From Streptomyces sp. CA-278952 (lineage in GTDB: Bacteria > Actinomycetota > Actinomycetes > Streptomycetales > Streptomycetaceae): 64,000 bases of DNA. Below the pieces are notes generated by a model. The model was not told the DNA's origin and did not search any database. It worked only from the letters and a program-made list of their open reading frames with translations. The stretch covers positions 7,723,501 through 7,787,500 of the forward strand of contig NZ_CP112880.1 of assembly GCF_028747205.1 (NCBI RefSeq), given 5' to 3'. Shown here piece after piece: positions 50,427 to 61,746 of the stretch (the stretch's first letter is position 1; each line of letters starts with the position of its first letter). The position numbers and the translations under genes are program-made.

Positions 50427-50526
50427 CGCCACGTCATGACCCGTTCGGCGCAGTCGAACGCATCCTCGTGAGACGTTCCGCCGTTCGTCAACCGGATGCA
50501 GTACGACAACGGGATCGGGGCAACGG

Positions 50527-51642
50527 GTGGCGAGGCGACGGGTGGCCGACAGCGGTACGGAGCCGGGGACGCGGGCGGGCGTCTTAGGGGCCGGGGCGCG
50601 CACGGCGGTGCTGGAGAGCGTGGCGGGATGGGTGCCGGGGGAGCCGATCGGCAACGACCGGCTCCCCGCGGACTGGGACGTCGACGACGCCTGGGTCCGC
50701 CGCCGCACCGGCATCGGCAGCCGGCACCGCGCCGGACCGGGCGTCGCCACCGGGGACCTCGCCTACGAGGCGGCCTCCCGGCTGCTGGTCCGCGACCCGG
50801 CGGCGGGGGAGGTGGACGCGGTGGTCCTCGCCACCGCCACCCCCGACCACCTCTGTCCGGGCACCGCCCCCGCGCTGGCGGCCCGGCTCGGGCTCGGCAC
50901 CGTACCGGCCCTGGACATCGCCGCCGTGTGCAGCGGCTTCGTCTACGGACTCGCCGTCTGCCACGGGCTGGTCGCCTCGGGCCTCTACGACCGGGTCCTG
51001 CTGGTCGGCGCCGACGCCTACTCGACCTGGCTCGACCCGGCCGACCGCTCGGCGGGCGTCGTCTTCGGCGACGGGGCGGGCGCCGCCCTGGTGGCGGCCG
51101 GGCGCCTGGGCGATCCCGGGGAACTGCTCGCGTTCGACCTGGGCAGCGACGGCACGGGCTACGACCTGATCACCGTCCCCGGCGGCGGGGCCCGCGCGCG
51201 GGCGAGCGGAAAGCCGCCGGCCCCGGACGACGGGTTCTTCCGCATGCAGGGCGGCACCGTCTACCAGCACGCCGTCGAGCGGATGACCGGCTCCTGCCGG
51301 ACGCTCCTGGACCGGGTCGGCTGGGACCCGGCCGAGGTCGACCGGTTCGTGCCGCACCAGGCCAACGCCCGGATCCTGCACGCCGTCGCGGAGCGGGTCG
51401 GCATCGCCCCGCAGCGCTGCGTCACCCATGTGGAGCGGGTCGGCAACACCGGCGCCGCCTCCATCCCGCTGGCCCTGGCCGACGAGGCGGGCCGAGGTCG
51501 CCTCCGCTCCGGCGACCGGGTGCTGCTCACCGCCTTCGGGGGCGGACTGACCTGGGGTTCGGCGGCACTTCGCTGGCCGGGGGCCCCGGGGACCATTTCC
51601 ACGGATTCTACGGAAGGAACACAGCATGTCGCTCCCCGCTGA
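50527..51642 (+). CDS. Beta-ketoacyl-ACP synthase III (FabH-like), first gene of a fatty-acyl operon
   Basis: This 371-aa condensing enzyme starts a chain by joining an acyl-CoA to malonyl-ACP. The triad is intact: Cys in DIAAVCSGFVYG near 136, His in VPHQANARIL near 280, Asn in RVGNTGAASIP near 310. GTG 50527 is the likely start; an N-terminal extension of about 25 residues precedes the thiolase fold. It lies in a five-gene same-strand set with two FabF-like KAS, an acyl-CoA oxidase and an ACP, and overlaps the next gene by 17 bp. This is the composition of the lipid-tail genes (fabH4, fabF3, hxcO, ACP) of the calcium-dependent antibiotic cluster. Confidence 0.9.
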   Translation: MARRRVADSGTEPGTRAGVLGAGARTAVLESVAGWVPGEPIGNDRLPADWDVDDAWVRRRTGIGSRHRAGPGVATGDLAYEAASRLLVRDPAAGEVDAVVLATATPDHLCPGTAPALAARLGLGTVPALDIAAVCSGFVYGLAVCHGLVASGLYDRVLLVGADAYSTWLDPADRSAGVVFGDGAGAALVAAGRLGDPGELLAFDLGSDGTGYDLITVPGGGARARASGKPPAPDDGFFRMQGGTVYQHAVERMTGSCRTLLDRVGWDPAEVDRFVPHQANARILHAVAERVGIAPQRCVTHVERVGNTGAASIPLALADEAGRGRLRSGDRVLLTAFGGGLTWGSAALRWPGAPGTISTDSTEGTQHVAPR

Positions 51643-52882
51643 TCAGGGCACCGAGGCCGGAGCCGGCACCGCCATCGCGGTGACGGGGGTCGGCCTGGTG
51701 ACACCCGCAGGGGCGGACGAGCACAGCTTCTGGGAGAGGCTGTGCTCCGGGCACTCCACCGCCCGGCGGTGCGAGGAACTGGCCGGTCTGCCGGTCGACT
51801 TCGCCTGCCCGGTGGACGGCATCGACCTGGACGAGGCAGTGGGCGGCCGGTCGGTGTGGCGGATGGCCCGGTTCGTGAAGCTGGCACTGGTGGCCGCCCG
51901 GCAGGCCGTCGCCGACGCGGGCCTCGACCCGGCACGGTGGGACGGCAGCCGGGTCGGGGTGGTCCTCGGCGTCGGCGTCGGCGGCGTCTCCGTCCTGGTG
52001 GACAACGCGGCCAAGCTGGCGGCCTCGGGCCCCGAGGCGGTCTCCCCGCTGCTCGTCCCGATGATGATCCCGAACGCGGCGGCGGGCGAGGTCGCCATCG
52101 CGCTGAAGGCGGGTGGCCCCAGCCTCGCCCCCGCCACCGCCTGCGCCTCCGGGGCCACCGCCGTCGCGGTCGCCCGCGACCTGCTGCTCGGCGGCAGCTG
52201 CGACGTGGTGGTGGCGGGCGGTGCGGAGTCGGTGCTGACCCCGCTGGTGGTCACCGCCTTCGCCCGGATGGGCGCGCTCTCCACCCGCACCGGCGACCCG
52301 GCCGGCGCGTCCCGCCCGTTCGCCGCCGACCGGGACGGTTTCGTCATCGGCGAGGGCGCCGCCATGCTCGTCCTGGAGCGCGAGAGTGCGGCCCGCGCCC
52401 GGGGCCGTCGTCCGCGTGCCCTGCTCACCGGGGCCGGGTCCAGCACGGACGCCCACCACCCCACCGCCCCGGCCCCCGACGGGTACGGCGCCCAGCGGGC
52501 GGTCCAGGCGGCGCTGGACCAGGCGGGCTGGGCCCCGTCCGACGTCGACCACATCAACGCCCACGGGACTTCCACACCCCTCAACGACGCCATGGAGACC
52601 GCCCTCATCTCCCGGCTCTTCCCGCACCGGCCGCCGGTGACCGCCCCCAAGGGGGTCGTCGGGCACACCCTGGCCGCGGCGGGCGCGATCGAGGCGGTGG
52701 CCACCGTCCTGACGCTGGAACGTTGCGCCATCCCGCCGATCGCCAACCTGGACGCGTTCCCCGACGCCTTCCCGCTCGACTGCGTGACGAAGGAGCCCCG
52801 TCAGCAACGGGTCGAGACGGCACTCAGCCACTCCTTCGGCTTCGGCGGCCACAACGTCGCCCTCGCCTTCCAACGCGCCTGA
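51626..52882 (+). CDS. Beta-ketoacyl-ACP synthase II (FabF-like), copy 1
   Basis: This 418-aa elongating condensing enzyme has a complete catalytic set: Cys in ATACASGATA near 172, His in NAHGTSTP near 312, His in GVVGHTLAAAG near 346, plus the gating HSFGFGGHN motif near the C-terminus. Because the active Cys is present it is not a chain-length-factor-type partner. ATG 51626 has GGAA upstream and overlaps the FabH gene. It is about as long as, and clearly homologous to, the second KAS at 55361. It probably extends the starter by one or two malonyl units. Confidence 0.92.
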   Translation: MSLPADQGTEAGAGTAIAVTGVGLVTPAGADEHSFWERLCSGHSTARRCEELAGLPVDFACPVDGIDLDEAVGGRSVWRMARFVKLALVAARQAVADAGLDPARWDGSRVGVVLGVGVGGVSVLVDNAAKLAASGPEAVSPLLVPMMIPNAAAGEVAIALKAGGPSLAPATACASGATAVAVARDLLLGGSCDVVVAGGAESVLTPLVVTAFARMGALSTRTGDPAGASRPFAADRDGFVIGEGAAMLVLERESAARARGRRPRALLTGAGSSTDAHHPTAPAPDGYGAQRAVQAALDQAGWAPSDVDHINAHGTSTPLNDAMETALISRLFPHRPPVTAPKGVVGHTLAAAGAIEAVATVLTLERCAIPPIANLDAFPDAFPLDCVTKEPRQQRVETALSHSFGFGGHNVALAFQRA

Positions 52883-52901
52883 TCCACAGGGGCATTTCGG
52901 G

Positions 52902-52923
52902 ACGGCGAGGGTGTCCTCGCCGT
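52902..52923. terminator. Perfect 9-bp hairpin between KAS and acyl-CoA oxidase genes
   Basis: ACGGCGAGG (52902-52910) and CCTCGCCGT (52915-52923) flank a GTGT loop, followed by TCCTT. It lies 20 bp after the KAS stop. It may split the operon into two transcripts, with a new promoter in the AT-rich 52924-52955 stretch. It also makes the in-frame GTG 52911 (in the loop) an unlikely start. Confidence 0.55.
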
Positions 52924-52955
52924 TCCTTGATCGTTACTTTGTTGTGACCGTAATC

Positions 52956-54983
52956 ATGAACGACGCGGCCCCGCCGTCCACGAACGACCTGCTCACCGCG
53001 GTGCTTTTCGGACCGAACTTCCTTCAGGAGCACGGGTTCTGGCGCCGGCTGCTCACAACGGAGCCGTTCCGCCGTCCCGGTGGTGGCACCCCCGACGAAC
53101 GACTCGCCCTCTCCTACCACCGGCTGCGCATCCTCAACAACGCGCTCGACAGCGGCGCGAGACTGGCCGCCGACCCCCGGGCGCTGGCCGCCCTGCACGA
53201 GTGGCTCGGCCCCGTCGACCCGGCGCTGACCACCGTGGCGGGCATCCACTACAACCTCTTCCTCGGCAGCCTCCTCGACCACGACGCGGGCACACTCCGT
53301 GACTTGTCGGACTTCCTCGCCCTGCGGCGTGTGGGCACCTTCCTCTGTACGGAGGTGGCGCACGGCAACGACGCGGCGGCCATCGAGACGACCGCGACGT
53401 ACGACCGGGAACGCGACGGCTTCGTGCTGCACACCCCGCACGCCGGGGCGCAGAAGTTCATGCCGAACACCAGCCCCGCCGGAGGCCCCAAGTCCGGTGT
53501 GGTCGCGGCCCGGCTGCTCGTCGACGGCGCCGACCACGGGGTCTTCCTCTTCCTCGTCCCGCTCACCGACGCCCATCGCGCCCTGCCCGGCGTCCGGGTG
53601 CGGCGGCTGCCCGCCCGGATGGGTTCCCCGGTCGACCACTGCCTGACCTCTTTCGACCGTCACTTCGTGCCGCGCGACGCGCTGCTCGCCGGACAGCAGG
53701 GACGGATCGGCGACGACGGGCGCTTCCACAGCGAAGTCCCGAACCGCAGAAGGCGGTTCCTCGCCTCCATCGGCCGGGTCACCCCCGGCAAGCTCTCCAT
53801 GAGCGCCTGCGCGGTCGGCTCCGCCCGGGTCACCCTGGCCATCGCCGTCCGGTACGCCGGCCACCGGATGATCTCCGGATCACGCGCCGCGCGGCCGGTC
53901 CCGGTGTACGCGCACCGCACCCATCACGGGCCGCTGGCCGGAGCGATGGCGACCGTCTACGCGATGAGCCTGCTCCACCGCAGGGCCCTGGACCGCTGGG
54001 AGTCCGCCCCGGAGAGCGACCGGGACGAGGCGGAGCGCCTGGTGGCCGTCGCCAAGGGGTGGATCACCTGGCAGGCACGCACCGTCATCGTCGAGTGCCG
54101 CGAACGGTGCGGCGCCCAGGGGCTCCTGGAGAACAACGGCATGACCGAGCTGTTCACCGGCATCGAGGGCGCGATCACCGCCGAGGGCGACAACCTCGCC
54201 GTGCACGCCAAGGCCGCCGCCGAGATGCTGTTCAGCGCCACCGCCCCGGAACCGGCCCCGGACGGCCCGGGGGATACGGACGGCCCCGGCGACACGGACG
54301 ACCCCGCCTTTCTCGGCAGGCTGTTCGCGGCGGTGGAGGACCTCTGGTTCGCCCGGGCCCGCGAGCGGATGGCCGCCGCCCCGCCCGGCGACCCGCTCGG
54401 CCGCTGGAACGCCGCCTCGTCGGCCGCGCTGCGCGGCGTCGAGGCGCACGCCTACCGGCAGGCGGACGAAGCGTACGCCGAGGCCGTCGCCGCCCTGCCC
54501 GAAGGTGCGGCGCGCGAACGGCTGTCCGAGCTGCGCAGGCTCTTCGCGCTCCGCTGGATCGCCCGCAACAGCGGCGCCCTGCTCGCGTCCGGACGGCTGA
54601 CCGCCGATCAGGTCACTTTTCTCCCCGACGCGGTGGAGGAAGCCGTCGCCGTCGTGGCCGAACACACACCCGCCCTGGTGGAGTCCTTCGCGCTCCCCGA
54701 GCGCCTGATGTCGGACTGGCCGATCGCCGGACCCGGCTACGCGGACGTGTACGACGACCCCGAGGGGCCCTGGCACCGGGGCCGCAGGGCGGGAATCCGG
54801 GGCCGCGCGGCGGAGTTCCGGCAGCCCGTCTGTGGCAGCAGGCGGCGCCCGCTGCGCCAGAAGGTGGCGGCGCTCGGTACTCGCGGGGTCCTGCTGGCGT
54901 ACTGGGGAACCACCTCCGTGCTCTCCCGATGGTTCGAGAAGCCGCAGGTGAGCGTAGACGAATCGGTTCGCCCGAAGGCGTAA
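52956..54983 (+). CDS. Acyl-CoA oxidase-family flavoenzyme (HxcO-like)
   Basis: This 675-aa FAD enzyme probably introduces an alpha,beta double bond, and possibly an epoxide, into the acyl chain on ACP. TFLCTEVAHGNDAAAIETTA near residues 128-147 is the flavin-contacting TELxHGSN-type motif. VECRERCGAQGLLENNGM near 379-396 and TAEGDNLAVHAKAAAEM near 407-423 (with the catalytic Glu) are the ACOX C-terminal motifs. The remaining 250 residues form the helical ACOX C-terminal domain. In the calcium-dependent antibiotic cluster the homologous HxcO acts on hexanoyl-ACP. ATG 52956 is chosen because GTG 52911 lies in a hairpin; no clear ribosome site is visible. Confidence 0.88.
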   Translation: MNDAAPPSTNDLLTAVLFGPNFLQEHGFWRRLLTTEPFRRPGGGTPDERLALSYHRLRILNNALDSGARLAADPRALAALHEWLGPVDPALTTVAGIHYNLFLGSLLDHDAGTLRDLSDFLALRRVGTFLCTEVAHGNDAAAIETTATYDRERDGFVLHTPHAGAQKFMPNTSPAGGPKSGVVAARLLVDGADHGVFLFLVPLTDAHRALPGVRVRRLPARMGSPVDHCLTSFDRHFVPRDALLAGQQGRIGDDGRFHSEVPNRRRRFLASIGRVTPGKLSMSACAVGSARVTLAIAVRYAGHRMISGSRAARPVPVYAHRTHHGPLAGAMATVYAMSLLHRRALDRWESAPESDRDEAERLVAVAKGWITWQARTVIVECRERCGAQGLLENNGMTELFTGIEGAITAEGDNLAVHAKAAAEMLFSATAPEPAPDGPGDTDGPGDTDDPAFLGRLFAAVEDLWFARARERMAAAPPGDPLGRWNAASSAALRGVEAHAYRQADEAYAEAVAALPEGAARERLSELRRLFALRWIARNSGALLASGRLTADQVTFLPDAVEEAVAVVAEHTPALVESFALPERLMSDWPIAGPGYADVYDDPEGPWHRGRRAGIRGRAAEFRQPVCGSRRRPLRQKVAALGTRGVLLAYWGTTSVLSRWFEKPQVSVDESVRPKA

Positions 54984-55088
54984 CCGGAAGATCGTCATCC
55001 AGTTACATCGGGCGGCGGGCCCTCGCGTTCACGCACCCGCCGCGCAGAACGAAACCAAGCCGTTGATACGCCGACGAGAGGAACCACC

Positions 55089-55364
55089 ATGAAGACCATC
55101 CACCCCAAGATCACCGAGGTACTGACCGCGACGTTCAAGGTGCCCGCCGCCGAGATCCTGCCGGAGTCCACGATGGACAGCCTGGAGATGGACTCCCTCG
55201 CGGTCGCCGAGTTCGCCGTCGTCATCAAGGAGACCCTGGGCGTCGACGCGGACTCGGAGAAGCTGTACAAGGACGCCACGCTGGCCGACATCTCCGCGTA
55301 CATCGACGCGGCCGTCGGCAGCGCGGCGGCCGAGGCCACGGTGCCGGTGAGCAACACCCGATGA
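55089..55364 (+). CDS. Dedicated acyl carrier protein
   Basis: This 91-aa carrier has its phosphopantetheine attachment Ser at residue 36 in LEMDSLAVAE, in the DSL context of ACPs, followed by the acidic recognition helix VAEFAVVIKETLGVD. It would hold the growing chain for the two KAS enzymes and the acyl-CoA oxidase-type enzyme. GAGAGGAACC lies just upstream of ATG 55089. The 3' end overlaps the next KAS gene by ATGA, so carrier and synthase are translated together. No phosphopantetheinyl transferase or malonyl transferase is nearby; these would come from primary metabolism. Confidence 0.94.
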   Translation: MKTIHPKITEVLTATFKVPAAEILPESTMDSLEMDSLAVAEFAVVIKETLGVDADSEKLYKDATLADISAYIDAAVGSAAAEATVPVSNTR

Positions 55365-56584
55365 AGCGACCCGCCATCGCCGTCACCGGGCTGGGGATGA
55401 TCACCCCGGTCGGCCACACCACCGACACCACCTGGGACGGAGTCTGCGCGGGCGCGTCGCCCGCCCGCACCGTCCCCGAACTGCTGGGCTGCGAAGTCGA
55501 CTTCGCCTGTACGGTCACCGGCATCGACCTCGACGACGCGGTCGGCGGCCGGACCGCGTTCCGGATGGGCAGGTACGTCAAGTTCGCCCTCCTGGCCGCC
55601 CGGGAGGCGGTCGCCGACGCCGGGCTCGACCCGGAGCGCTGGGACGGCGCCCGGGTCGCCGTCGTCGTCGGCACGAGCAGCGGAGGATCCGCCGGACTCA
55701 CCGAGCAGGCCGTCGCCCTGGAGCGGCGGGGCCCCGGGGCCACCTCGCCCTCGGGCATCCTGCTGACCATCCCGAACATGCCCGCGGCCGAGATCGCCAT
55801 CAGGATGGGGGCCACCGGCCCCAGCCTGGCCCCGTGCACGGCCTGCTCGTCCGGGGTGACCGCGCTGTCGGTGGCCCGGGACATGCTGACGCTGGGCCAG
55901 TGCGACATCGCCATCGCCGGGGCCACCGAGTCGATCGTGTTCCCGGTCGCCATGACCGGCTTCGCCCGCTCCGGCGCGGCAGCGCTGCGGGACGGCGACC
56001 CCGCCCTCCTCTGCCGGCCCTTCGCGGCGGACCGGGCCGGCATCGTCATGGGCGAGGGCGCGGCCATCATGGTCCTGGAGCGGGCGGAGGACGCCCGGAG
56101 GAGAGGAGCCGTTCCCCGGGCGCTGATCGCGGGCGCGGGCGCCACCACCGACGCCCATCATCCCACCAGCCCGCACCCGTCCGGGGAGGTCGCGGGGGCG
56201 GCGGTCGACGCCGCGCTGCGCGACGCGGGCTGGCGGGCCGAGGACGTCGACCACGTCAACGCGCACGGGACGTCGACCCCCCTCAACGACGCCACCGAAG
56301 CCGCCCTCATCGGCCGGTCCTATCCGCACCGGCCGCCCGTCACCGCCCCCAAGGGTGTGCTGGGCCACTGCATGGGAGCGGCCGGCGCCATCGAAGCGGG
56401 CCTGACGATCCTCACGCTCCAGCACGGAGTGGTCCCTCCGATCGCGAACCTGGACGCCCCCGAGCCCGGGTTCGACATCGACTGCGTCACCAAGGCCCCG
56501 CGCGAGGTGCCCGTACGGCGGGCCGTCAGCCACTCCTTCGGCTTCGGCGGCCAGAACGCGGTGATCGCCCTCCAGGCTCAGTAA
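55361..56584 (+). CDS. Beta-ketoacyl-ACP synthase II (FabF-like), copy 2
   Basis: This 407-aa condensing enzyme is paralogous to the KAS at 51626 (shared VDFAC.V.GIDLD.AVGGR and HPS/HPTAPxP-type segments). The catalytic residues are complete: Cys in CTACSSGVTA near 162, His in NAHGTSTP near 301, His in GVLGHCMGAAG near 335, and HSFGFGGQN at the C-terminus. Two complete KAS enzymes with one ACP is unusual for a small fatty-acyl operon. They may act at different chain lengths or form a heterodimer. Coupled by ATGA to the ACP gene. Confidence 0.92.
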   Translation: MKRPAIAVTGLGMITPVGHTTDTTWDGVCAGASPARTVPELLGCEVDFACTVTGIDLDDAVGGRTAFRMGRYVKFALLAAREAVADAGLDPERWDGARVAVVVGTSSGGSAGLTEQAVALERRGPGATSPSGILLTIPNMPAAEIAIRMGATGPSLAPCTACSSGVTALSVARDMLTLGQCDIAIAGATESIVFPVAMTGFARSGAAALRDGDPALLCRPFAADRAGIVMGEGAAIMVLERAEDARRRGAVPRALIAGAGATTDAHHPTSPHPSGEVAGAAVDAALRDAGWRAEDVDHVNAHGTSTPLNDATEAALIGRSYPHRPPVTAPKGVLGHCMGAAGAIEAGLTILTLQHGVVPPIANLDAPEPGFDIDCVTKAPREVPVRRAVSHSFGFGGQNAVIALQAQ

Positions 56585-59211: not shown

Positions 59212-59745
59212 TCAGAGGGCCGCCGGGACCTCGGCGATCGAGCGGCCCGCCCACGCGGGCGTCGGCTCGACGAGCGCGGCCAGCCGCTCCCGTACGGAAT
59301 CCGGAAACGGGACGGTGCGGCCCGCCCGTTGGTCCACGTGGAGGGCCAGCAGCTCGCTCGTCGCCACCGGGGCGGCCTCCGGCTCCGGTACGCCGTCCGG
59401 CGCGCCGACCACGTACAGCTCGTGGCTGAAGCGCGCCTTCTTCGCGTCCACGCCCAACAGACGGGTACGGACGGCGAGATGGGCGCCCTCGGCCACGTCG
59501 CGGAGATAGCGCAGATGCGACTCCACCGTGTAGAGCGAACAGCCCGTGCTCTCCCGGTACCCGGCGTGCAGACCGGTCTCGATCATCATCGCGTCGGTGG
59601 CGTACCCGAAGACGAGGACGTAGAACGCCTCGCTCATATGGCCGTTGTAGTCGATCCACTCGGGTCGCACGGTCCGGTGGAACAGGGGGAGTTCCGTGGC
59701 GTTGTCGGTCACGGTCGCGTCCTCGGGAGTCGCGTGCTCGCTCAT
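59212..59745 (-). CDS. cdhB: Betainyl-CoA thioesterase of carnitine catabolism
   Basis: This 177-aa hot-dog thioesterase has PEWIDYNGHMSEAFYVLVFG near residues 29-48, with D-x-N-G-H-M matching the catalytic region of 4HBT enzymes, and ESHLRYLRDVAEGAHLAVRT near 74-93. In Pseudomonas the gene order cdhC-cdhA-cdhB encodes cleavage, dehydrogenation and thioester hydrolysis of carnitine to glycine betaine. Here the same order is found, and cdhB overlaps cdhA by 4 bp. It would release glycine betaine from betainyl-CoA. Confidence 0.85.
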   Translation of the reverse strand: MSEHATPEDATVTDNATELPLFHRTVRPEWIDYNGHMSEAFYVLVFGYATDAMMIETGLHAGYRESTGCSLYTVESHLRYLRDVAEGAHLAVRTRLLGVDAKKARFSHELYVVGAPDGVPEPEAAPVATSELLALHVDQRAGRTVPFPDSVRERLAALVEPTPAWAGRSIAEVPAAL

Positions 59746-60758
59746 CGGACGACCTCCTCGGCGGACCGGGGCAGTCGGCCCGTGGCCCGCAGGACGTCGA
59801 TGACGCCCCGGTCCCGTTCGGCGACCAGATCGGCGATGCTCCGGCCGTCCGCCGCCTCCTCGCAGCCGGCCACCACCGCCTCGTACAGCGCCCGGTCCAG
59901 TTCCGGTGCTTCGAGCCGGGTCCAGGGCGACTTGAGCGACGGGCCGAAGTGGTCGAGCATATGGGCCATACCGCCCTCGCCGCCCGCGAGCGCGAAGGTC
60001 AGCATCGGTCCCATGACGGCCCAGCGGAGCCCCGGGCCCTCGGTGATCGACGCGTCGATCTCCGCCACCGTGGCCTCGCCGTTGGCGACCATGTGCAGGG
60101 CCTCGCGCCAGAGGGCCTCCTGGAGCCGGTTGGCTATGAAGCCGGGCACCTCGCGCTCCATGGTGATCACGGACTTGCCCGCGACGGCGTAGAAGCGCGA
60201 GGCCCAGTCGACCGCGGCGGGCGCGGTCCGTTCACCGCCGACGACCTCGACCAGGGGAATGAGGTAGGGCGGGTTGAAGGGGTGCCCGACGACGAGCCGC
60301 CCGGGGTCGGCGGCCTCGGTCTGCATGTCCGTCATCGGGTAGCCGGAGGTCGACGAGGCGATCACTGTGCCGACGGGCGCCGCGGCGTCCAGCCGGGCCA
60401 GTAGGTCGCGCTTGAGGTCCAGCTTCTCGGGGGCGCTCTCCTGGACGAACTGGGCGTCGGCCACGGCCTCTTCGAGGGTCGTGGTGACGGTCAGCCGGTC
60501 CTGTGACGCTCCGGGGGCCAGCCCGAGCTGCTCCAGCGCGGGCCAGGCCGCGGCGACGAGCCGGCGCAGCCGGACGGCCGCGTCGGGGGCCGGGTCCCAG
60601 GCGGTGACGTCGTATCCGCGGGCGAGGAAGTGGGCCGCCCAGCCACCGCCGATCACCCCGGCCCCGACGCACGCGACACGGCGTACGTCCTCCGGGGCGC
60701 AGGGGGCGGCGGGGCCGTCGGTCGCGGCGGCAGAGGGGGTGGCAGTCACGGGCGACAC
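59742..60758 (-). CDS. cdhA: L-carnitine 3-dehydrogenase (3-hydroxyacyl-CoA dehydrogenase family)
   Basis: This 338-aa NAD-dependent enzyme oxidises L-carnitine to 3-dehydrocarnitine. The Rossmann motif VGAGVIGGGWAAHFLARG lies near residues 30-47. SSTSGYPMTDMQ and GHPFNPPYLIPLVEVVGG lie near 140-175. The carnitine-dehydrogenase-specific region GPMLTFALAGGEGGMAHMLD is near 247-266. An extra N-terminal stretch of about 25 residues (Ala/Pro-rich) precedes the fold. The gene is preceded by a polypurine tract and 94 bp after the cdhC gene, and overlaps cdhB by ATGA. Confidence 0.9.
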   Translation of the reverse strand: MSPVTATPSAAATDGPAAPCAPEDVRRVACVGAGVIGGGWAAHFLARGYDVTAWDPAPDAAVRLRRLVAAAWPALEQLGLAPGASQDRLTVTTTLEEAVADAQFVQESAPEKLDLKRDLLARLDAAAPVGTVIASSTSGYPMTDMQTEAADPGRLVVGHPFNPPYLIPLVEVVGGERTAPAAVDWASRFYAVAGKSVITMEREVPGFIANRLQEALWREALHMVANGEATVAEIDASITEGPGLRWAVMGPMLTFALAGGEGGMAHMLDHFGPSLKSPWTRLEAPELDRALYEAVVAGCEEAADGRSIADLVAERDRGVIDVLRATGRLPRSAEEVVR

Positions 60759-60772
60759 TCCAGAAAGACGGT

Positions 60773-60823
60773 GGGGGAGGGGAAGAGGGAAAGGGAAAGG
60801 GGGGAGTGAAAGGGGGAGGAGGG
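60773..60823 (+). repeat. Polypurine tract between cdhC and cdhA
   Basis: From 60773 to 60806 the plus strand is uninterrupted G/A (34 nt). One T follows, then purines again to 60823. On the coding strand of the operon this is a pyrimidine-rich spacer just upstream of cdhA. It could adopt unusual structure or bind pyrimidine-specific factors in the mRNA. Confidence 0.6.
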
Positions 60824-60852
60824 CGTACGGGGGAAGAGGGAGGCGTGCGTGG

Positions 60853-61746
60853 TCAGGCGCGCGGGCGCAGGCCGAGCTTCACGCGTGCCTCGTCGGGCGT
60901 GGCGACCCGGGAGCCCAGGGATTCGGTGATCCGCACGGCGCGCTCCACCAACTGACCGTTGGTGGCCTTGACGCCCTTGCCCAGATAGAGGTTGTCCTCC
61001 AGGCCGACCCGGACGTGTCCGCCGAGCAGGATCGACTGGGCGGCCCAGGGCATCTGCATCCGGCCGAGCGCGAAGCTCGCCCACTGGGCGCCCTGCGGAA
61101 GCATGTTGACCATCGCCTGGAGGACGCCCGGGTCGGCGGGCGCGCCCCATGGAATGCCCATGCAGAGCTGGAAGACCGTGGGGTCGTCGAGCAGCCCCTC
61201 GGCGAGGAGCTGTTTGGCGAACCACAGCTGCCCGGTGTCGAAGATCTCCAGCTCGGGCCGGACCCCGAGCTCCTGAATGCGCTTCGCGCCGGTGCGCAGC
61301 ATGTCGGGGGTCGAGACATAGAGGTTGCTGCCGTCACCGAAGTTGAGAGAACCGCAGTCCAGGGTGCAGATGTCCGGCAGCAGATCCTCGACGTGCGGCA
61401 GCCGTTCGAGACCGCCGACCAGATCGGTGCCCGGCAGCCGGCGGAGCGGGGCCTCCGGGTCGATGACGAGGTCTCCGCCCATACCGGCGGTCAGGTTGAT
61501 GACCACATCGGTGCCGGTCTCCCGGATCCGCTCGACGACCTCCCGGTAGAGCCGCGGATCGCGGGAGGGCGCGCCGGTCTCCGGCTCGCGGACATGGATG
61601 TGCACGATGGCGGCACCGGCCCCGGCGGCCTCGACGGCGGAGGCGGCGATCTGCTCGGGCGTCACCGGGACATGGGGGCTGCGGCCGACGGTGTCGCCGG
61701 CTCCGGTGAGGGCGCAGGTGATGATGACGTCCTGGTTCACGGGCAT
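60853..61746 (-). CDS. cdhC: 3-dehydrocarnitine:acetyl-CoA cleavage enzyme (BKACE/DUF849 family)
   Basis: This 297-aa TIM-barrel enzyme is of the beta-keto-acid cleavage family. It should convert 3-dehydrocarnitine and acetyl-CoA into acetoacetate and betainyl-CoA. Family features seen are [12 protein letters not shown] at the N-terminus, the zinc-site IVHIHVRE near residues 47-54, NLTAGMGGD near 84-92, and [11 protein letters not shown] near 198-208. The other zinc ligands are expected around [14 protein letters not shown] near 241-254, which matches the DUF849 C-terminal His/Glu motif. ATG 61746 has AGGAG 10 nt upstream. It precedes cdhA in the order known from Pseudomonas caiX-cdhCAB. Confidence 0.9.

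Follow-up and report, generated by a model that had tools for sequence, protein, structure and literature searches.

The oxidase Aco and the cytochrome P450 Cyp17 have been reported as necessary for avenolide (PMC6930871), and deletion of the Aco orthologue XNR_2339 in Streptomyces albus was reported to result in loss of butenolide 4 (PMC5575351). An adjacent TetR-type receptor and P450 are given as the context criterion for Aco-type butenolide loci (PMC7347384). Here we describe an operon of Streptomyces sp. CA-278952 in which an enzyme of the Aco family is encoded together with its own acyl-chain genes. The operon occupies positions 50527-56584 of a 64-kb stretch of the 8.2-Mb chromosome (the window, in what follows) and consists of five same-strand genes, whose open reading frames (ORFs) were confirmed: a FabH, a FabF-type β-ketoacyl-acyl carrier protein synthase (KAS1), an acyl-CoA-oxidase-type enzyme (ACOX), an acyl carrier protein (ACP) and a second FabF-type synthase (KAS2). 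We conclude with high confidence that this five-gene unit is a dedicated pathway, because its genes recur together in different genomic settings and because the duplicated KAS stands apart from primary FabF. The five genes are:

50527..51642, + strand: FabH-type KAS III (priming), from Pfam/NCBIfam and catalytic residues
51626..52882, + strand: KAS1, FabF-type, Cys-His-His intact, from domains, tree and alignment
52911..54983, + strand: ACOX, flavin acyl-CoA-oxidase-type enzyme of the Aco (avenolide synthase) family, from domains, tree and model
55089..55364, + strand: ACP, with Ser36, from domain and residue
55361..56584, + strand: KAS2, FabF-type, Cys-His-His intact, KAS1 paralogue (60% identical), from domains, tree and alignment

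The genes are closely packed, with a 17-bp overlap of FabH and KAS1, gaps of 28 bp between KAS1 and ACOX and 105 bp between ACOX and ACP, and a 4-bp overlap of ACP and KAS2; their third-position GC content (GC3) is 0.91-0.97. Pfam and NCBIfam scans identified two FabF-type KAS, ACOX domains and a PP-binding domain in the operon proteins, and FabH was assigned by PRK09352 (338 bits). The best match of FabH in the PDB is 2x3e, which we take to be a Pseudomonas aeruginosa enzyme. Catalytic residues are present in FabH (Cys135/His277/Asn307), KAS1 (Cys173/His313/His347) and KAS2 (Cys162/His302/His336), and the ACP has Ser36 in a DSL motif. The triads are retained in all aligned relatives (KAS1 69/69, FabH 43/43, KAS2 68/68), and the last of these counts upholds the original prediction that the second KAS is intact and not a chain-length factor. 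A type II polyketide synthase (PKS) pair of ketosynthase and chain-length factor was rejected for the same reason, the active Cys of KAS2 being intact. Neither a thioesterase nor, as had been predicted, a reductase or dehydratase is encoded in the operon according to the domain scan.

The distribution of the unit was examined in several genome sets, which overlap and include near-identical strains, so that the locus counts are not independent. KAS2 orthologues were found in 25 of 295 Streptomyces genomes, 24 of them at 76% identity or more and one as a fragment at 82%, and the next KAS below them was 61% identical. In all 25 genomes an ACOX match adjoins on the same contig, although that of G116 is an end fragment (56%). 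With an identity of at least 62%, ACOX occurs, among the matches listed, in at least 35 of the 295 genomes, with fragments only in G028 and G147. A phylum-wide sample of 396 genomes gave an ACOX match at E 1e-60 or better in 5, four of them Streptomyces, and the best 80 of the 257 loci in a scan of named genomes included S. griseus NCTC13033 (95%), S. anulatus, S. globisporus, S. microflavus and S. parvus. The set FabH-KAS-ACOX-ACP-KAS thus recurs in many genomes, as a check proposed with the original prediction had asked, and it does so in four settings. In setting A, seen in the S. griseus clade and some relatives, the unit lies between PfkB and PRC-barrel genes; in setting B it lies between a two-domain terpene synthase gene, which we presume to encode geosmin synthase, and an SDR gene; in setting C it follows an MFS gene and precedes an Rsm22 gene; and setting D is another place, represented by a single locus of S. 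celluloflavus. When the loci were read gene by gene, only the five genes, and in part a microprotein described below, were common to all settings. One genome (locus L220) has an empty site, with PfkB and PRC 136 bp apart and the unit absent.

Candidate partners were sought among the neighbours in each setting, genes in the fetched loci having been called with a codon-usage-based caller. The PfkB and MFS genes upstream of the unit and the ArsR, PadR and PRC-barrel genes were rejected as partners since none of them was seen, in its window version, in setting B, C or D, and PfkB lies ∼150 and ∼210 kb from ACOX in G204 and G166; the terpene synthase and SDR genes of setting B were rejected because they are confined to that setting. 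No thioesterase, ligase, acyltransferase or second KASIII was seen travelling with the unit across settings. Among 31 window proteins scanned with Pfam, including the three longest called, which are carbohydrate-active enzymes, there was no nonribosomal peptide synthetase (NRPS) or PKS. Gene calls from the flanking DNA fetched for 91 operon-type loci (15 kb or more in 83) included no adenylation motif, large condensation protein or protein of more than 1400 amino acids. The prediction of a stand-alone acyl module with no NRPS is therefore well founded. Our literature search found no description of the five-gene operon, which does not exclude that one exists; unnamed ‘fatty acid’ clusters are among the antiSMASH results given for S. 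griseus XylebKG-1 (PMC6018390).

The origin of the KAS pair was addressed with a tree of 73 of the 181 KAS sequences, length and coverage limits having been applied before tree building. KAS1 and KAS2 each form one clade, and these are sisters on a joint branch (99*) apart from primary FabF. The host protein that we took as primary FabF (L124, adjoining FabH and an ACP-sized gene) is 42% identical to KAS1 and 34% to KAS2 and branches apart. Clustering of the pair with primary FabF, together with a neighbourhood conserved in no other genome, had been named beforehand as a possible refutation of a dedicated pathway, and neither was observed. The nearest outside KAS belong to FabH-ACP-KAS-KASIII-P450 sets and to sets with adenylating enzymes. 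Since each of the two forms a single sister clade, KAS1 and KAS2 are, on this tree, an old tandem duplicate, with one duplication that predates the spread of the unit.

Several lines of evidence place ACOX in the Aco family. Its predicted structure (mean pLDDT 86.6) matched acyl-CoA oxidases at all of ranks 1 to 33 in a PDB comparison. Glu425 aligns with Glu421 of rat ACOX-II, which we take to be the catalytic base. ACOX is 50-57% identical to seven Aco-type proteins, and in a tree of 120 sequences (thinned from 145 by removal of near-copies, with L189 left out because of runs of N and L194 dropped by the length and coverage limits) the operon sequences form a clade (99*) that lies inside the Aco-type clade (96*), and 20 distant ACOX are placed elsewhere. 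The 37 Aco-type ACOX that are not of the operon clade show 44-59% identity. One of them is encoded at L211, a P450-TetR-Aco gene set on a contig of S. torulosus NRRL B-3889; the strain, though not the individual locus tags, could be matched to a published list of butenolide loci (PMC7347384). Between operon and other Aco-type ACOX, 146 alignment columns are fixed alike and 3 are fixed differently, and 38 of the 146 shared residues are rare in distant ACOX; these common fixed columns support a chemistry that is presumably shared. The host genome contains a second Aco-type ACOX (L078, G000:C1:3673466-3675271, 49%) with no adjacent receptor and P450. TetR receptor homologues are found elsewhere in the host genome at 42% and 39%, the latter ∼15 kb from L078.

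The early branches of the operon ACOX clade are five-gene loci. When 89 operon-type loci were classified, 44 had FabH and both KAS, 24 had no FabH (some of these at contig ends) and 21 had ACOX alone. On the ACOX tree the distribution of KAS requires at least three changes and that of FabH at least four, of which one falls at a contig end; the starred branches force two for the ACOX-alone label. Read in this way, the KAS and ACP genes have been lost and ACOX kept in two or three lineages, which suggests that ACOX can use another acyl pool.

Four further features lie upstream of or within the operon:

50442..50460, no strand: inverted repeat CGTTCG-N7-CGAACG, candidate operator, one match in the window and 0 in 100 shuffles
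50481..50495, + strand: second conserved upstream element CCGTTCGTCAACCGG, from pattern conservation
50584..50586, + strand: TTA codon of bldA type (FabH codon 20), the single TTA in FabH
54801..54983, + strand: fused microprotein segment (YWGTTSVL...ESVRPKA), ACOX C-terminus from residue ∼631, a separate overlapping gene in many relatives

A TTA codon makes translation bldA-dependent in Streptomyces. It is found in the first 45 FabH codons in 29 of 33 sequences from setting A and 2 of 3 from setting C, at positions that are approximate since FabH start codons in relatives were picked by rule; any TTA codon occurs in 110 of 3081 called genes. The inverted repeat matches 28 times in the 3.68 Mb of loci that were fetched. 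Of the 42 five-gene loci, 28 have a copy no more than 420 bp upstream of FabH, and no copy lies anywhere else in that DNA; none was seen in setting B, C or D. For the second element, the pattern CCGTTYGTCADCCGG was detected in 16 of 219 loci, and a looser form lies upstream of FabH in 35 of the 42 five-gene loci; with 70 matches in all fetched DNA, the looser form is not private to the unit. These counts include near-identical strains. A promoter and terminator scan was little informative.

The microprotein is a small ORF directly after ACOX in many relatives (49-64 amino acids in 41 of 44), with a hydrophobic centre, AVLLAYWGTTSVLA, and in many an ESVRRKA end. In the clade of the window, that of S. 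griseus, it is fused to the ACOX C-terminus, and residues 638-690 of the ACOX model, which correspond to this segment, have low confidence. Of the separate forms, of which S. atratus OK807 (L158) has one, 43 of 44 have a start codon at a 4-bp overlap with the ACOX stop, although our start rule favoured the -4 position and the overlap is partly automatic when the stop reads ATGA or GTGA. That form of stop accounts for 51 of 58 non-TAA operon-type ACOX stops, compared with 15 of 57 in other ACOX and ∼31% of 2974 called genes. Because the median pN/pS (ratio of nonsynonymous to synonymous polymorphism) is 0.74 in frame versus 1.08 and 1.19 in shifted frames, constraint on the microprotein is, by this measure, moderate. 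It was not seen in 7 of 8 setting-B loci inspected, and Pfam has no family for the one microprotein scanned. In L061, L167 and L170 it is decayed, and what is left of its tail (ESVHREA or ESVHRNA) forms the end of ACOX, so that the two are partly fused in frame.

The reading we favour, with a confidence a little short of even, is that this dedicated and mobile five-gene acyl pathway is a chain-supplying, receptor-less variant of the Aco system that makes a small oxidised lipid, possibly a butenolide. FabH would start the chain from an acyl-CoA, KAS1 and KAS2 would extend it on the operon's own ACP, primary FabG/FabZ/FabI-type enzymes of fatty acid synthesis (FAS) would reduce it, and the Aco-family flavin enzyme would oxidise it, most likely at the alpha-beta positions. 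Since no thioesterase, ligase or acyltransferase is common to the settings, the chain would be released either by closing on itself into a small lactone (a butenolide) or through an unlinked enzyme, and the TTA codon would gate the first gene in most close relatives. That ACOX acts on the operon's own acyl-ACP, in an Aco-type oxidation of its own chain, seems to us probable. The product class is considerably less secure, and we assign it only tentatively to the butenolides or similar signals; no finding favours the short or epoxy acyl chain of the original prediction. Because ACOX is related to the avenolide-making enzyme, the unit may by analogy make a lipid signal. A fuller version, which we consider doubtful, would have a self-contained mobile signal unit in which an Aco-type synthase, its own acyl line and a coupled microprotein, with no linked receptor or P450, are gated by bldA and a private operator and address their lipid signal to receptors that are encoded elsewhere or belong to other strains.

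Several observations weigh against the favoured reading. A TetR receptor and a P450 both lie within three genes of ACOX at 24 of the 37 other Aco-type loci but at 0 of 91 operon-type loci, and this absence is real evidence against plain membership of the Aco system; at the distant ACOX loci the count is 0 of 20. Moreover, the Aco-type genes nearest to operon ACOX in the tree (L077, L192, L197 and L212) are not among the receptor and P450 loci, the operon encodes no enzyme for C4-oxygenation, and the function of operon ACOX may have changed since its split from Aco. The FabH TTA, for its part, was found in 0 of 9 setting-B sequences, three of which (L174, L188 and L194) lack their beginning, and in 0 of 1 from setting D.

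The interest of the unit is twofold. To our knowledge, the way in which avenolide-type butenolides are made from fatty acids is not settled as to which chain is used, whether it is ACP- or CoA-bound and what part the oxidase plays; an Aco-type oxidase tied to a dedicated FabH, KAS pair and ACP is a small expressible system for settling it. The unit also suggests that ∼8% of the sampled Streptomyces genomes (25 of 295), the S. griseus clade among them, may encode orphan lipid signals, which mining by linked receptor and P450 would overlook.

The alternative that survives best, although we judge it unlikely, is an operon like the stand-alone fas cluster of Streptomyces sp. NP10, whose product would be a free fatty acid, unsaturated or branched, or which would adjust the lipids of the membrane; ACOX would then do no more than desaturate the chain. 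A stand-alone FabH-ACP-KAS operon, fasA-K, is indeed described in a relative of S. griseus, where disruption of fasB almost abolished free fatty acids (PMC6018390), and no acceptor gene was seen travelling with our unit, which also speaks for this alternative. However, the fas cluster as described includes an AfsA homologue, reductases and another oxidoreductase, with no ACOX listed (PMC6018390), and the unit has no thioesterase with which to free an acid.

We consider it improbable that the operon acts in trans as a module like that of the calcium-dependent antibiotic (CDA), furnishing a lipid tail for a product whose NRPS or PKS genes lie at another place in the genome. CDA and cystargamide are reported to use FabH4, FabF3 and HxcO homologues with primary FAS (PMC9136287), and many ketosynthase domains, read as PKS, are present in very long open frames elsewhere in the genome. 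Nevertheless, neither an adenylation nor a large condensation motif stands beside the unit in the 91 loci (no search for an NRPS common to the carrier genomes was made), in the tree the closest relative of ACOX is Aco, and the operon contains no hcmO-type gene. The likeness to CDA on which the original prediction was built extends to the gene types, namely FabH, FabF-type KAS, ACP and an ACOX-type enzyme, but is weak: with no linked NRPS, no hcmO and an Aco-family ACOX, a CDA-type epoxyhexanoyl module is not supported. The CDA reading is thus unlikely on these comparisons, of which that of ACOX was made without an HxcO sequence.

Slightly less probable again is the supply of acyl-ACP to an unlinked acceptor other than an NRPS (a sugar, indole or amine), on the pattern of carbazole pathways, where hydroxybutyryl-ACP comes from a FabH and an ACP specific to the pathway. 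NzsE is described as a pathway-specific ACP and NzsF as a pathway-specific KASIII (PMC7466098), and the nearest outside KAS and FabH (58-63%) include those of the FabH-ACP-KAS-KASIII-P450 sets. The label ‘carbazole-like’ for these sets was not borne out, as the L092 neighbour that we tested has ferredoxin and CMD domains, and no second KASIII, ligase or acyltransferase was seen travelling with the unit.

Finally, a catabolic ACOX in an operon that recycles fatty acids, with the KAS genes as bystanders, could appeal to the 2x3e match of FabH, to the priming of P. aeruginosa PA3286 from octanoyl-CoA (PMC11801535) and to catabolic-type genes in the flank at 59-62 kb, but it is the least probable of all, since the five genes stay together across settings while that flank does not follow, and since the TTA is conserved, the ACP is the operon's own and the KAS is duplicated.

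The flank itself (window positions 59212-61746) contains a 4HBT thioesterase, a 3-hydroxyacyl-CoA dehydrogenase and a beta-keto acid cleavage enzyme adjoining a TetR-type gene, which we read as carnitine-type catabolism.

How the operon compares with related gene sets can now be stated. With the CDA and cystargamide lipid-tail genes (fabH4, fabF3, hxcO and ACP) it shares FabH, FabF-type KAS, an ACOX-type enzyme and ACP, and the proposed reliance on primary FAS; it differs in having no NRPS and no hcmO, in its second KAS and in its Aco-type ACOX, and also in gene order. The carbazole acyl supply (NzsE/NzsF, CqsB5/CqsB6) likewise combines a pathway-specific FabH and ACP with primary FabG, whereas the operon has no carbazole-forming enzymes. 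NP10 fas cluster C12-2 resembles the operon in its stand-alone FabH, ACP and KAS genes, its host in the S. griseus clade and a TTA noted in fasI (PMC6018390). To the AfsA homologue and reductases, neither of which was detected in our operon by domain scan, the published account of C12-2 adds a phosphatase, an MFS gene and a second KASIII, and it lists no ACOX (PMC6018390).

ACOX genes were also found in other type II sets. ACOX-KASIII-SDR-FabH-ACP-KAS sets (L111-L116, L118, L119 and L216) combine ACOX with FabH, ACP and KAS as in the operon, but have an extra KASIII, mostly an SDR-sized gene between, and a single KAS. This arrangement recurs (for example L112:8003-15377, where Pfam identifies an acyltransferase); its ACOX is 29-33% identical to operon ACOX, and the four checked lie outside the operon/Aco clade. 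G or A replaces the catalytic Glu in these four, so that a different chemistry is possible for this flavoprotein. The ACOX of L110, which neighbours adenylation and ketosynthase genes, is also outside the operon/Aco clade and has no catalytic Glu. In L104-L107 (for example L106:5092-14512) there is a FabH-ACP-KAS-ACOX set, with the catalytic Glu kept in the three ACOX checked, and in L106 it is followed by a 4HBT thioesterase, FAA hydrolase, carboxyl transferase, class IV aminotransferase and SDR-like gene. L214 (G250) has an ACOX (38%) beside a 2031-amino-acid protein with a ketosynthase motif.

The Aco/Cyp17/AvaR1 avenolide-type system (S. avermitilis; XNR_2339 in S. albus; snbX, orf18) uses the same ACOX subfamily as the operon, and the motifs GTFLCTE, RERCGAQ and TAEGDN, together with the catalytic Glu, are common to Aco and operon ACOX. 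The two differ in that the operon, with no adjacent receptor and P450, has a FabH, two KAS and an ACP of its own.

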